From positions 62,001 to 126,000 of the forward strand of contig DASYZB010000105.1 in assembly GCA_035946615.1 (NCBI GenBank): a stretch of DNA of 64,000 nt. The letters are read 5' to 3'. The position numbers were made by a program, and so were the translations under genes. Each line of letters starts with the position of its first letter. The stretch's first letter is position 1. Shown piece by piece: positions 30,422 through 35,328 of the stretch. The DNA is from Verrucomicrobiia bacterium (GTDB lineage: Bacteria > Verrucomicrobiota > Verrucomicrobiia > Limisphaerales > UBA8199). The notes below the pieces were generated by a model. It did not search any database. It was not told the origin of the DNA and saw only the letters and a program-made list of their open reading frames with translations.

Positions 30422-31147
30422 CTATTTCACCGCCGAGTACTCGCTTAGTATGCCAAAACGGCTATCCCGTTTTACCTCTCTGAATCCTGCTCGACGCAAA
30501 GTTTCCAGGATCAGCTCGGGGCGCACGCAAGCTTCGATCGTTTCCCAGTAATACTTCACCAGGTCCTGTGCGGCTTGGCTTCCGGTGAAAATCCGAGTGA
30601 GCCAGGGGTATAAAGAGTTGAAGTAGGTCTTCAACAGGGCGGCGCCAAGCCGGTTGGACGGCTTGGTAATTTCGAGCAGCAGCACCTTGCCCCCGCTCGC
30701 CAGCACCCGGTGGTATTCCTGAAAGGCCTGATCCAGGCTGGTCACGTGCCTCAGCGCGTAACCCATCGTCAGAAAATCGAACGACCCGTCCGGCAACGGA
30801 ATCTCTTCCGCCCGCCCCTGGAGGAAGCGCGCGTTGAGTTTGCGTTTTGCCACTGAAAGCATACCGCTGCTCGGGTCCAGACAGGTAATGCTCTGCGCGG
30901 TGCCCAGGAGCCTGGCTGCTTCGACCGCCACAAGGCCCGTGCCGCAACCGACATCCAGCAGCCGTTGGCCGGGGCGCAAACCTTGCCGCCCCAACGCCCA
31001 CCGGCGGTAACTGCTGCCGCTCCTGAGGAAACCCCAGGACACAATGCCATCGTAATATTGCGCGCCGCGATCAAAGAGCTGGTTTACGAAATCGGGCTTC
31101 TGCTCGGCGGCCTCAAATCGGGTTCTTATTACGGGGTGTGGAAGCAT
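30422..31147 (-). CDS. UbiE/MenG-like SAM methyltransferase
   Basis: A 241-aa class I methyltransferase with VNQLFDRGAQYYDGIVSWGF, SAM motif LLDVGCGTGLVA and EIPLPDGSFDFLTMGYALRH, characteristic of the quinone C-methyltransferase family UbiE/MenG. The C-terminal SRFGILSEYSAVK also fits. It lies 16 nt downstream of the ferritin-like protein on the same strand, so it may be co-expressed with it. True quinone methylation is likely but not certain; other UbiE-like methylases exist. Confidence 0.75.
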   Translation of the reverse strand: MLPHPVIRTRFEAAEQKPDFVNQLFDRGAQYYDGIVSWGFLRSGSSYRRWALGRQGLRPGQRLLDVGCGTGLVAVEAARLLGTAQSITCLDPSSGMLSVAKRKLNARFLQGRAEEIPLPDGSFDFLTMGYALRHVTSLDQAFQEYHRVLASGGKVLLLEITKPSNRLGAALLKTYFNSLYPWLTRIFTGSQAAQDLVKYYWETIEACVRPELILETLRRAGFREVKRDSRFGILSEYSAVK

Positions 31148-31163: not shown

Positions 31164-32588
31164 TCATGCGCTGCCGGTGAGTTCTTTGAGATCGGCGCGA
31201 ACGGTTTGATAGGTGGTCGAGTAGGCCAGGACCGCCGGGTCGGGCTCGATACCCCAGCGCTGGCAGGCGGCCCGGTAAAGGTCCGGCCACCAATTGCGAT
31301 GTTCAGTCAGGCCCTGGCGGCGCCAGGTTTCCCAATCCATCAAGACCCGGGACCAGCACTGGTCACCGTAGCGGACGGCTTGTTGTGGGTCCTTGAATTC
31401 CTTGAGATACCAATCGCGTCCGATGCGCGCATGAAGGACTTCATCGGCCCAATCGTAATCCTGGAACAGGGCGGCCAAAGGATTTTGGGAGGCTCGCCCC
31501 ACTTCCCACTCGAAACGCTTGCCATTTTTGGGCATCAATCCCTGCTCGATAAAGTACAGCACCGCGTGGCGTTCAATGGGTTTGAGCTGGGTATTGAGGG
31601 CCAAGGACCAGGTATAGTTCACCATGACTTTTTGGGGCCACTCAATTCCGAGGTTGGCAAAACCGACCTCACCCATCATGGCGTGGCGGGCCTCGTCCCA
31701 GAGCTGGCGGGTCATGTCGCGGTAATAGTCCCAAGGCTTGCTCTTGGTCTCTGTGATAATGCTGGCCATCATCTCGGGCACATCGATCTCGCGCAGCCGC
31801 TTGTAAAACATCATCAGCGTTTTGGGCTGCGGCGGGAACTTTTCGTCATAAAGGAAGACTTCGGCGTTGACGCCCATGTTGTAGGGGTCAGGAAAACGTT
31901 CATCGCGTTTGGGCACCCCCTCGTAACGATACGGAACGGCGGAATGCCGGCGCGCTACAGCCTGGCCGCTGGGCTTGGCCGTTCCATCCAGTCCACCTGC
32001 CGCATCGAGGCACGTGTCCAGCAATCCCAGCCATTCTTTCATTTGTTCACGCCCCGAGGCATCCACCAGCGCCTCGCCGCACTGAGCCCCAAATTGAAGC
32101 ATATCGGCGATATCCATCAAAGCAATGCGGCACACCCTGGCGCTGGGCTGATCGGCGAGCGGATTGGTGTCCTGGAGATGCTGTTCGAGCGCCTGTTGAA
32201 GCGCAGGCAACGCTTTCTCATACAACCCGGCCAGAAGCTCGCCTGTCGTGGGGGCCCCCAGAATTTCATCCCAAAAAATTTCGAGGTTTGCATCCGGGAC
32301 AGCCTCGAGCCCGAGCGGGGGTTCGCGCATTTCACCGACCCGCTGGCGCAAGGCGGTGACGTGCTCGGCGCACAAATGCCCATGATAACTGAAACCCATC
32401 TTGAGCTCATAGAGCGGCTCGGCCGTGATGCGCGCGATGAAGATTCCGTGCAGCCGCTTGAAAGCGTAATGGTACCGTTTCAGCCGGCGGACGCATTCCT
32501 CGACGGCAAGGCCCGGTTTCATGGCTTTTTGCAGAGTGGCAATCCCGGCGAGGGTCGGCAGAGAACGATGCGGCTGGTGGGCGCTCAT
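31164..32588 (-). CDS. Ferritin-like diiron-type protein of unknown function
   Basis: A 474-aa protein with two helix-borne ExxH motifs: Glu299-x-x-His302 in LWDEARHAMMGE and Glu383-x-x-His386 in ADEVLHARIG. Upstream glutamates (Glu272, Glu280 in EMMASIITET) could complete a ferritin-like carboxylate-bridged diiron site. A further N-terminal helical region (about 30-190) has GFSYHGHLCAEHV and no known motif. It is divergent to a corrinoid methyl-transfer operon, with 144 nt between the starts, hinting at a shared control region. The chemistry is unknown; an oxidative step on a methylated substrate is one possibility. Confidence 0.7.
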   Translation of the reverse strand: MSAHQPHRSLPTLAGIATLQKAMKPGLAVEECVRRLKRYHYAFKRLHGIFIARITAEPLYELKMGFSYHGHLCAEHVTALRQRVGEMREPPLGLEAVPDANLEIFWDEILGAPTTGELLAGLYEKALPALQQALEQHLQDTNPLADQPSARVCRIALMDIADMLQFGAQCGEALVDASGREQMKEWLGLLDTCLDAAGGLDGTAKPSGQAVARRHSAVPYRYEGVPKRDERFPDPYNMGVNAEVFLYDEKFPPQPKTLMMFYKRLREIDVPEMMASIITETKSKPWDYYRDMTRQLWDEARHAMMGEVGFANLGIEWPQKVMVNYTWSLALNTQLKPIERHAVLYFIEQGLMPKNGKRFEWEVGRASQNPLAALFQDYDWADEVLHARIGRDWYLKEFKDPQQAVRYGDQCWSRVLMDWETWRRQGLTEHRNWWPDLYRAACQRWGIEPDPAVLAYSTTYQTVRADLKELTGSA

Positions 32589-32732
32589 AACTTACTTTTG
32601 GGGCAACTTACCATTTTTTGCCATGGCCGCAGCAGAAAAGTTCGCGCCCGTTCACCACGGCAATGTTTGCTTTCCAAACCTGCGCAGGTTATAAATGGGT
32701 GGTCGCTGCAACCGCCGACCCGAATTGCTCCT

Positions 32733-33377
32733 ATGCCCGAACTGAACCAACTCCAAGAGGCTATCATCAATGGGGACGCCCTGCTGGCTCGAGGCGCCGC
32801 CGAACAAGCCCTGGCCCAGGGAATCGACCCGCTCAAGCTTGTGAACGAACAGATGGTGCCCGCCATGGACGAGGTGGGACGCCGGTTCGAGTGCAGCGAA
32901 TATTTTGTGCCGGAGCTGCTCATCTCGGCGCGGGCGATGAAAGCCGCCCTGGAACTGATCCGCCCGCTGCTGGCCGCCCGAGGCGAGCAACCGGTGGGGC
33001 GCGTCGCCATTGGAACTGTCCGAGGTGACTTGCACGACATCGGCAAGAACCTCGTGGCCTCGCTGCTGGAAGGAGGCGGGTTCGAGGTGATTGATCTCGG
33101 CGTCAATGTGCCGCCCGAGAAATTCATCGAGACGATCAAGGAGAAGCACGCCAATATCATCGCCATGTCCGCCTTGCTGACGACTACCATGCCGGCGATG
33201 AAAACAACCATCGAAGCCCTCGAACGCGCCGGGGTGCGCCAGCAGGTGAAGGTCTTTGTGGGAGGCGCGCCGCTGACGGAGAAATTTGCTCACGAAATCG
33301 GCGCCGATGGCTACTCTGAAAATGCCGTGGGCGCGGTGGCATTGGCCAAAAGGGCCGTCGCGGCGCCTCAGGCCTAG
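32733..33377 (+). CDS. Corrinoid (cobalamin-binding) methyltransferase protein
   Basis: A 214-aa protein of the MtaC/MtbC/MttC and MetH corrinoid type. The N-terminal four-helix cap (about 1-85, MVPAMDEVGRRFECSEYFVP) is followed by the Rossmann-like B12 domain with GTVRGDLHDIGKNLV; His101 in DLHDIG is the lower cobalt ligand. ALLTTTMPAMKTTIEAL and VFVGGAPL complete the family pattern. It carries methyl groups on cobalt. ATG 32733 was chosen; the very long open frame upstream is antisense to the ferritin-like gene. First gene of the operon. Confidence 0.95.
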   Translation: MPELNQLQEAIINGDALLARGAAEQALAQGIDPLKLVNEQMVPAMDEVGRRFECSEYFVPELLISARAMKAALELIRPLLAARGEQPVGRVAIGTVRGDLHDIGKNLVASLLEGGGFEVIDLGVNVPPEKFIETIKEKHANIIAMSALLTTTMPAMKTTIEALERAGVRQQVKVFVGGAPLTEKFAHEIGADGYSENAVGAVALAKRAVAAPQA

Positions 33378-33394
33378 GCAGGTTTTACCGCTTG

Positions 33395-34315
33395 ATGCAT
33401 TCGCTTTTTCAAAAGCTCCTCGCTTCCGGCCCGGTCCTGACCGATGGCGCCTGGGGCACCGAGTTGCAGTGTCGGGGCCTGGGTTTGGGTGAGTTTCCCG
33501 ACACCTGGAACGTGACGCATCCGGAGCAGGTGGGGGAAGTGGCTCGCGCTTATGTTGCGGCCGGAAGCCAGGTTATCCTCACCAACACCTTTGGCGCAAA
33601 CCGGCTTAGGCTCGCCGAACAGAACGCCCCTTTTGATGTGCAACAGATCAATCGGCGCGGGGTGGAGATTTCGCGCATGGCAGCCAGCGAGCGCGCCTTG
33701 GTTTTTGCCTCGATTGGCCCCAGCGGCAAACTGCTCGTCACTGGTGATATCGACCCTGGCGAATTGCAAAGCGCCTTTGCCGAACAAGCACAAGCCCTTG
33801 CCGAAGCGGGCGCTGACGCATTGCTGGTCGAGAGCTTGTCCGACCTCGAAGAGGCGTCCGTCGCCGTGCGCGCGGCCAAAGAGACGGGTCTCCCGGTGGT
33901 TGCCTCGATGGTATTCAACAGCGGCAAGGACAAAACCCGTACGATCATGGGCCAAACTCCTGAGCAGGCTGCGCGCGCGCTTGGAGGAGCCGGCGCCGAT
34001 GCCCTCGGCGCCAACTGCGGCCAGGGCATCAGCGGGTTCATCCCCGTTTGCCGCCAATTGCGCGCGGCCAGCCCGCTCCCAATCTGGATTAAACCCAACG
34101 CAGGTCTGCCGCGGCTTAGCGATGGCAGGGCGCATTACGATACATCGCCTGCTGAATTCGCCGCTTTTGTCCCGGCCCTGCTCGAGGCGGGCGCGAATTT
34201 TATCGGGGGTTGCTGCGGCACACGACCCGATTTTATTGCGGCAATGAAAGATGTCCTGGCAAAAACCCGGCGCGCTGAGGGGCGCCTGGCATCGCCAACT
34301 TACAGTCATCTATGA
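33395..34315 (+). CDS. Homocysteine S-methyltransferase family protein
   Basis: A 306-aa TIM-barrel homocysteine methyltransferase like the MetH N-terminal domain and BHMT: LTDGAWGTELQ, VILTNTFGANRLRL, GANCGQGIS and GGCCGT supply the zinc-binding cysteines. It could methylate homocysteine from the corrinoid protein encoded just upstream. ATG at 33395 is preferred over TTG at 33392. Its stop overlaps the next start (ATGA). With the corrinoid gene it looks like a split methionine synthase lacking the folate-binding and reactivation domains. Confidence 0.92.
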   Translation: MHSLFQKLLASGPVLTDGAWGTELQCRGLGLGEFPDTWNVTHPEQVGEVARAYVAAGSQVILTNTFGANRLRLAEQNAPFDVQQINRRGVEISRMAASERALVFASIGPSGKLLVTGDIDPGELQSAFAEQAQALAEAGADALLVESLSDLEEASVAVRAAKETGLPVVASMVFNSGKDKTRTIMGQTPEQAARALGGAGADALGANCGQGISGFIPVCRQLRAASPLPIWIKPNAGLPRLSDGRAHYDTSPAEFAAFVPALLEAGANFIGGCCGTRPDFIAAMKDVLAKTRRAEGRLASPTYSHL

Positions 34316-35328
34316 CCTCTCGCGAACGAGTCCTGGCGCACTTGGCCGGCCAGCCAGTCGATCACCTGCCTCTGATGCCCATCACCATGATGTTCGCCGC
34401 AAACCTTATCGGCGCGCGTTACCGCGATTATTGCACCGACTACCGTTTGCTGGTCGAAGGCCAAATCCGCACCGCCGAAACTTTTGGTTTCGATTATGTC
34501 AATACGATGTCGGACCCGGCTCGAGAGGCGGCCGATTGCGGGGCTACGGTGGAATACTTCGACAATCAGCCGGTAGCGATTATTGAAGACCAGGCGCTCC
34601 TGGCCGACAAAGCCAAGTTAGCTTCGCTCAACGTACCTGACCCGTACGCTGGCGGGCGCATGCACAACGCCCTTAAGGCCCTGGCGCTTTTAAAAGAAAA
34701 AGCCGGCGCCGAAAAGATCGTCGAAGGCTGGGTGGAAGGGCCCATTGCCGAAGCGGCGGATTTGCGCGGCATCAACACGGTGATGATGGATTTCTTTGAT
34801 GACCCCTCGTTCGTGCGCGACCTGTTTGCTTTCGTTGTGGAAATGGAACTCCGGTTTGCCCGCGCTCAAATCGAGGCTGGGGCGGACGTAATTGGCGTGG
34901 GGGATGCCGCCGCCTCGCTGGTGGGACCGCAGATATACAACGAATTCGTATGGCCCTATGAGAAGAAGTTGGTGGATGGCATCCACGCGCTGGGAGCCAA
35001 AGTCCGGATGCATATCTGCGGCAACACGCGCCCGATTCTCGAAGGGCTCGGCAGGTTGCAATGTGAAATCGTCGATTTGGATTCTCTGGCGCCCCTCTCC
35101 GAGGCCCGGCGAAAGATGGGTCCCGAGCAGGTGCTGCTGGGAAACCTCAACCCGGTGGCTGTCTTGCGAAATAGCCGTGCGCGGGACGTCACCGCCGCCG
35201 TGGCCGATTGTCACCAGCAAGCCGGCCCCCGTTTTATTGTTGGCGCCGGTTGTGAAGTGCCGCGCGACACCACATCGGAAAACCTCCGCGCCATGTGCGA
35301 TTACGCCCTCAACCATTCACCGATTTGA
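34312..35328 (+). CDS. Uroporphyrinogen decarboxylase-fold methyltransferase (MtaA/CmuA-like)
   Basis: A 338-aa protein of the HemE/MtaA superfamily. HICGNT (His234, Cys236) plus GAGCEVP (Cys314) form the H-x-C...C zinc site of the methylcobamide methyltransferases MtaA/MtbA/CmuA, which true uroporphyrinogen decarboxylases lack. Such enzymes move methyl groups between a corrinoid protein and a thiol or other acceptor. It overlaps the homocysteine methyltransferase gene by 4 nt. Which methyl donor or acceptor it uses is unknown. Confidence 0.88.
   Translation: MTSRERVLAHLAGQPVDHLPLMPITMMFAANLIGARYRDYCTDYRLLVEGQIRTAETFGFDYVNTMSDPAREAADCGATVEYFDNQPVAIIEDQALLADKAKLASLNVPDPYAGGRMHNALKALALLKEKAGAEKIVEGWVEGPIAEAADLRGINTVMMDFFDDPSFVRDLFAFVVEMELRFARAQIEAGADVIGVGDAAASLVGPQIYNEFVWPYEKKLVDGIHALGAKVRMHICGNTRPILEGLGRLQCEIVDLDSLAPLSEARRKMGPEQVLLGNLNPVAVLRNSRARDVTAAVADCHQQAGPRFIVGAGCEVPRDTTSENLRAMCDYALNHSPI

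Follow-up and report, generated by a model that had tools for sequence, protein, structure and literature searches.

The operon described here, from the genome of an uncultured Verrucomicrobiota bacterium (5.6 Mb, 96% complete), is probably the core of a modular corrinoid hub, in which several donors would pass methyl groups to a free-standing corrinoid protein (CORR) and from there to homocysteine, served by a RamA-type activase and lacking a dedicated folate module. This reading is supported by gene content, motifs and co-occurrence, by the predicted fold of the UroD-superfamily protein (UROD), by operons that other phyla share, and by a search that found no dedicated folate methyltransferase outside MetH. 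Against it stand the presence of a complete MetH, the absence of DUF1638, and the position of the activase gene and of a donor candidate gene on contig C149, neither of which is linked to the operon here. The catalytic steps, the direction in which UROD works and the methyl donors are what we infer from sequence.

Architecture of the locus

The operon lies in a window of 64,000 nucleotides, the whole stretch of DNA analysed, and the near relatives that carry names are 'Verrucomicrobia subdivision 3' and Limisphaerales MAGs. The features, with the evidence for each, are as follows.

30422-31147, minus strand: UbiE-like methylase (ORF; Pfam Ubie_methyltran)
31164-32588, minus strand: FERR, DUF455-like ferritin protein, 474 aa (ORF; Pfam DUF455 below cut-off)
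32733-33377, plus strand: CORR, free-standing corrinoid protein and putative methyl carrier, 214 aa (Pfam/NCBIfam; His motif; nearest solved structure 1y80)
33392-34315, plus strand: HCY, predicted homocysteine S-methyltransferase, acceptor side (Pfam; zinc cysteines; neighbours)
34312-35328, plus strand: UROD, MtaA-like UroD-superfamily methyltransferase by prediction (Pfam; His-Cys-Cys; model; co-occurrence)

Open reading frames, Pfam matches and conserved residues confirm the original prediction of a tight CORR-HCY-UROD operon from which FERR and the UbiE-like gene diverge. CORR starts at ATG 32733 and occupies the 3' portion of a longer frame; HCY starts at a TTG, with an alternative ATG at 33395. 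A gap of 14 bp separates CORR from HCY, whereas HCY and UROD overlap by 4 bp (ATGA). The divergent starts of FERR and CORR are 144 bp apart; promoter and terminator scans of this gap were empty, and an Rfam scan for a riboswitch governing the operon returned no match.

CORR and HCY are separated methionine synthase modules by domain content

CORR is composed of a B12-binding_2 cap and a B12-binding domain (Pfam), and its cobalamin-binding histidine motif (GD-x-HD-x-GKNL) is kept in 20 relatives. HCY matches S-methyl_trans (Pfam, 2.4e-66), with its zinc cysteines (NCG and GGCCG) conserved across relatives, and its nearest solved structure is the homocysteine domain of MetH. Judged by these features, CORR and HCY are the cobalamin and homocysteine modules of methionine synthase, separated. 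MetH itself combines homocysteine, folate, cobalamin and activation modules; the operon does not encode such an enzyme, holding the homocysteine and cobalamin parts only, as separate proteins.

The triad co-occurs and is clustered across phyla

Co-occurrence was assessed by Fisher tests on 97 related genomes, treated as independent with phylogeny ignored, using presence sets taken from search tables and identity thresholds set by hand. On this basis, CORR and UROD occur jointly in 30 genomes against 11.2 expected (p 3e-18), with only three genomes carrying CORR without UROD and three the reverse. CORR is likewise found with HCY in 29 genomes (p 4e-18) and with the RACo/RamA-type activase (RACo) in 31 (p 5e-17), and 27 of the 33 UROD-positive genomes also encode DUF1638 (p 4e-17). 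The relatives carry CORR-HCY-UROD in this order or as the pairs CORR-HCY, HCY-UROD and CORR-UROD. Co-occurrence and gene order together identify the CORR-HCY-UROD triad as a real unit. Within the order, ORF clustering revealed no conserved substrate-specific neighbour of the triad beyond the core genes; greedy ORF picking in this clustering lost some genes, and tblastn maps were used instead.

Outside this order, fuller operons are present. CORR-HCY-DUF1638-UROD-RACo is encoded in L170 and L199, and CORR-MtaB-HCY-DUF1638-UROD-RACo in L180, with partial versions of the CORR/HCY/DUF1638/UROD/RACo set in L177, L179, L212, L227 and L233. The DUF1638 gene is positioned between HCY and UROD in L169, L170, L188, L199, L212 and L233, and also in L180, where it is split across two frames, and L227 has it between CORR and UROD. 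A family search did not find DUF1638 in the present genome.

UROD carries a predicted MtaA-like zinc site

UROD belongs to the URO-D family (Pfam, 1.8e-62), and its zinc site, H234-x-C236 and C314, is invariant in 27 aligned orthologs, with the same His-Cys-Cys ligands in the orthologs checked from other lineages. These ligands align with those of MtaA, zinc binding itself being predicted. The UROD model (pLDDT 95) superimposes best on MtaA (Z 41.4, rmsd 1.9, 326 residues), which is the closest solved relative by sequence as well as by structure; UROD nevertheless scores under the curated cut-off of the MtaA/CmuA family (TIGR01463; 153.8 versus 235.4 bits). According to PMC10418091, His-Cys-Cys is the mark of S/Se-methyltransferases in the UroD superfamily, and the zinc site thus points to sulfur (or selenium) as the atom on which UROD works. 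UROD most likely loads CORR from a methylthio donor, its place being the least certain part of the mechanism.

Orthologs of UROD at ≥64% identity occur in records labelled Verrucomicrobiota, Planctomycetota, Acidobacteriota, Hydrogenedentota, Omnitrophota and Armatimonadota, these being MAG labels that can be wrong. At many of the loci in those phyla, the sequence covered shows UROD with none of its partner genes. Six Opitutae-labelled loci (L168, L172, L173, L176, L186 and L193; ~9.0-12.5 kb each) carry an operon with three consecutive UroD-family genes, the products being the core UROD, a short protein of HFDANN type and another His-Cys-Cys protein ~33% identical to UROD.

Candidate donor methyltransferases

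Family searches found neither MtaB nor MttB in this genome, and both were rejected as its donor enzyme. A further UroD-superfamily gene lies outside the window.

L261:5782-7230, contig C149, minus strand: CdmB/O-demethylase-like UroD-superfamily protein, 482 aa (CdmB match)

The only PDB match of the C149 protein is CdmB (E 9e-33), a chloromethane methyltransferase close to O-demethylases (PMC13222342), and an invariant YAEG replaces the HxC zinc motif of UROD. Its orthologs adjoin CORR in L114, L120 and L179 and UROD in L210 and L224, while its own gene is not linked to the operon. The C149 protein is the best candidate for a donor methyltransferase in this genome, its activity being predicted. 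The earlier claim that no MtaB/MtbB-type enzyme is present holds within the window; for the genome as a whole, the absence of a dedicated donor methyltransferase is not supported, given this candidate and its orthologs beside CORR or UROD.

Among the relatives, MtaB adjoins CORR in L114, L125, L163 and L180, and genome G036 has it next to a corrinoid protein that is less closely related (47% identical). Further UroD-like genes average 4.8 in CORR-positive genomes versus 0.3 in CORR-negative ones. The sampled paralogs have His-Cys-Cys, carboxylate-type or ligand-free zinc sites; by the rule given in PMC10418091, the His-Cys-Cys and carboxylate-type sites would fit S/Se-type and O-type chemistry, respectively.

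MtaA, to which UROD is closest, works on the acceptor side, so UROD may run in the opposite direction. It is possible, if rather doubtful, that UROD passes the methyl group of CORR to a thiol, a second outlet beside homocysteine, leaving other UroD paralogs and MtaB as the only donor enzymes. That MtaA is a methylcobalamin:coenzyme M methyltransferase speaks for such a role, as do the near-constancy of UROD in the core against a changing set of donor-type enzymes and the presence of MtaB together with UROD in the L180 operon. However, HCY already supplies the thiol acceptor, and we know of no second acceptor thiol for these bacteria. PMC10418091, moreover, links UROD relatives from mlp clusters to the demethylation of methyl-selenium compounds. 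Loading of CORR by UROD is the reading that we prefer.

Activase and folate modules elsewhere in the genome

Contig C15 encodes a 518-aa RACo/RamA-type activase (PF14574, 223 bits), whose gene is unlinked to the operon. PF14574 activases are present in 37 of the 97 genomes, 31 of which also contain CORR and only three of which lack all of CORR, UROD and HCY. The activase gene adjoins or lies near UROD in L170, L175, L177, L179, L180, L199, L206, L212 and L227. Because HCY and CORR represent separated methionine synthase modules that co-occur with a corrinoid activase, the original proposal of a demethylation route feeding methionine survives as a corrinoid route that would end in methionine, whereas the diiron step and the absence of a donor enzyme that it included do not.

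A complete MetH is encoded on contig C81, so the triad route would not be needed for methionine as such. The PF00809 proteins of this genome comprise MetH and two DHPS-type proteins only. No MtgD-type pterin methyltransferase was found by PF00809, the 96% completeness leaving a small chance of a miss, and no tetrahydrofolate acceptor methyltransferase (MTII) was found among the same proteins. A second dihydropteroate-synthase-like protein (L265:1264-2205, minus strand, contig C161) scores below the DHPS cut-off.

MetH and the DHPS-like proteins could in principle make CORR and HCY a spare methionine synthase, fed methyl-tetrahydrofolate through the MetH pterin domain or an unrecognised pterin protein and using no external donor. 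Split methionine synthases of such composition exist in Phaeobacter (PMC5764234). We consider this unlikely: an MtgD-type pterin protein was not found, and UROD, the adjoining MtaB/CdmB-like genes and the UroD expansions would be left unexplained.

In the modular hub that we favour, CORR would receive its methyl groups from donor UroD proteins or from MtaB, the C149 protein being the best candidate here and MtaB, with methanol, the probable donor enzyme in some relatives. UROD would load CORR from a methylthio donor, standing where MetH has its folate module, and HCY would transfer the methyl from CORR to homocysteine, yielding methionine. The RACo/RamA-type activase would re-reduce oxidised CORR at the expense of ATP, a task that falls to a SAM-dependent activation domain in MetH.

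FERR and the UbiE-like gene

FERR misses the Pfam gathering cut-off of DUF455 (25.1 versus 34.3 bits). Two ExxH pairs, E299xxH302 and E383xxH386, are invariant and located in the DUF455-like half. The N-terminal ferritin-like bundle is well predicted, while the C-terminal half of the model has low pLDDT, and the PDB comparison covers mainly residues 24-205. Together, the ExxH pairs and the ferritin-like bundle make it plausible that FERR is a diiron protein.

Orthologs of FERR are present in 45 of the 97 related genomes and are conserved at 65-80% identity across families of the order. None of the 20 ortholog loci with flanks (up to ~10 kb) has CORR, HCY, UROD or a UbiE-like gene beside FERR, and 29 short loci agree, showing no triad or UbiE-like neighbour. 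FERR and CORR occur jointly in 11 of the 97 genomes versus 15.3 expected, and no positive association of FERR with CORR, UROD, HCY or RACo was detected in this set (odds ratios 0.44-0.65, all p > 0.08). On synteny and co-occurrence, FERR is rejected as a partner of the system and regarded as a bystander to the triad. The UbiE-like gene was also rejected as a partner, lying beside neither FERR nor the triad in other loci; across genomes, both genes are found independently of the triad, the outcome that the original proposal had named as its refutation. As separate observations, FERR is a solitary gene with paralogs of ~28% identity in several genomes, and the UbiE/MenG-like methylase scores under the UbiE/MenG cut-offs.

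The original model, in which FERR is a diiron enzyme acting on the methyl donor together with the operon, draws on the conserved ExxH pairs and on the divergent arrangement across the 144-bp gap in this one genome, but the arrangement is absent from the 20 relatives with flanks and positive co-occurrence is lacking, which largely refutes it and leaves it highly improbable.

Comparison with known corrinoid systems

Roseobacter genetics ties separate CORR- and HCY-type proteins, together with RamA and DUF1638, to methionine synthesis, and the roseobacter corrinoid protein has a further role in the demethylation of glycine betaine (PMC5764234, PMC12478193). The hub is best read as a variant of this split methionine synthase/Mtg system. 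In common with the Mtg systems of Phaeobacter inhibens and Ruegeria pomeroyi (PMC5764234, PMC12478193), it has a free-standing corrinoid protein (MtbC/MtgC there), a free-standing homocysteine methyltransferase (MtgE there), a RamA-type activase, donors predicted to be added as separate methyltransferases and DUF1638 as a system part, although the last is absent from this genome. It differs in that no MtgD-type pterin module was found, an MtaA-like His-Cys-Cys UroD protein standing in the core instead, that a full MetH coexists, and that the donor candidates are UroD-superfamily proteins or MtaB rather than MtgB.

With type 1 mlp clusters, as described in the accessible text of PMC10418091, the hub shares the proposed methyl-sulfur/selenium chemistry and methionine salvage, and UROD matches the His-Cys-Cys zinc site of Mlp. 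The same text gives these clusters as needing at least two Mlps, reports them from obligate anaerobes only and describes no dedicated homocysteine methyltransferase gene for them, whereas here a single UROD accompanies HCY, with the activase elsewhere (C15). Cdm chloromethane and O-demethylase systems (MTI, corrinoid protein, MTII and activase; PMC13222342) likewise contain a corrinoid protein and an activase, and a putative CdmB-like UroD donor enzyme is encoded in this genome, unlinked to the operon. Their acceptor enzyme is a tetrahydrofolate methyltransferase, while here it is predicted to be a homocysteine methyltransferase. UROD shares its predicted fold and zinc ligands with Methanosarcina MtaA (4ay7/4ay8) at ~23% identity.

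Implications

Split methionine synthase/Mtg systems and mlp clusters are already known as kinds. The published work searched contained no system that pairs HCY with an MtaA-like His-Cys-Cys UroD protein and lacks a pterin module, and a literature search for the module in these phyla, covering few subscription papers, returned nothing direct. We tentatively propose that a widespread, undescribed corrinoid hub exists in Verrucomicrobiota, Planctomycetota, Acidobacteriota, Hydrogenedentota and relatives, in which interchangeable UroD-family or MtaB donor enzymes would feed one corrinoid protein and, through it, homocysteine, bypassing folate, and UROD would contribute methyls from methylthio (or methylseleno) compounds.

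UroD-family arrays are present in many uncultured soil, sediment and freshwater bacteria, where they are easily annotated as uroporphyrinogen decarboxylases. If the proposal is true, demethylation of methoxyl, methanol or methylthio compounds would be coupled directly to the supply of methionine and SAM, not to folate-based energy metabolism. It would also account for the UroD gene expansions and uncover a sink for methyl groups to which surveys of folate methyltransferases are blind.
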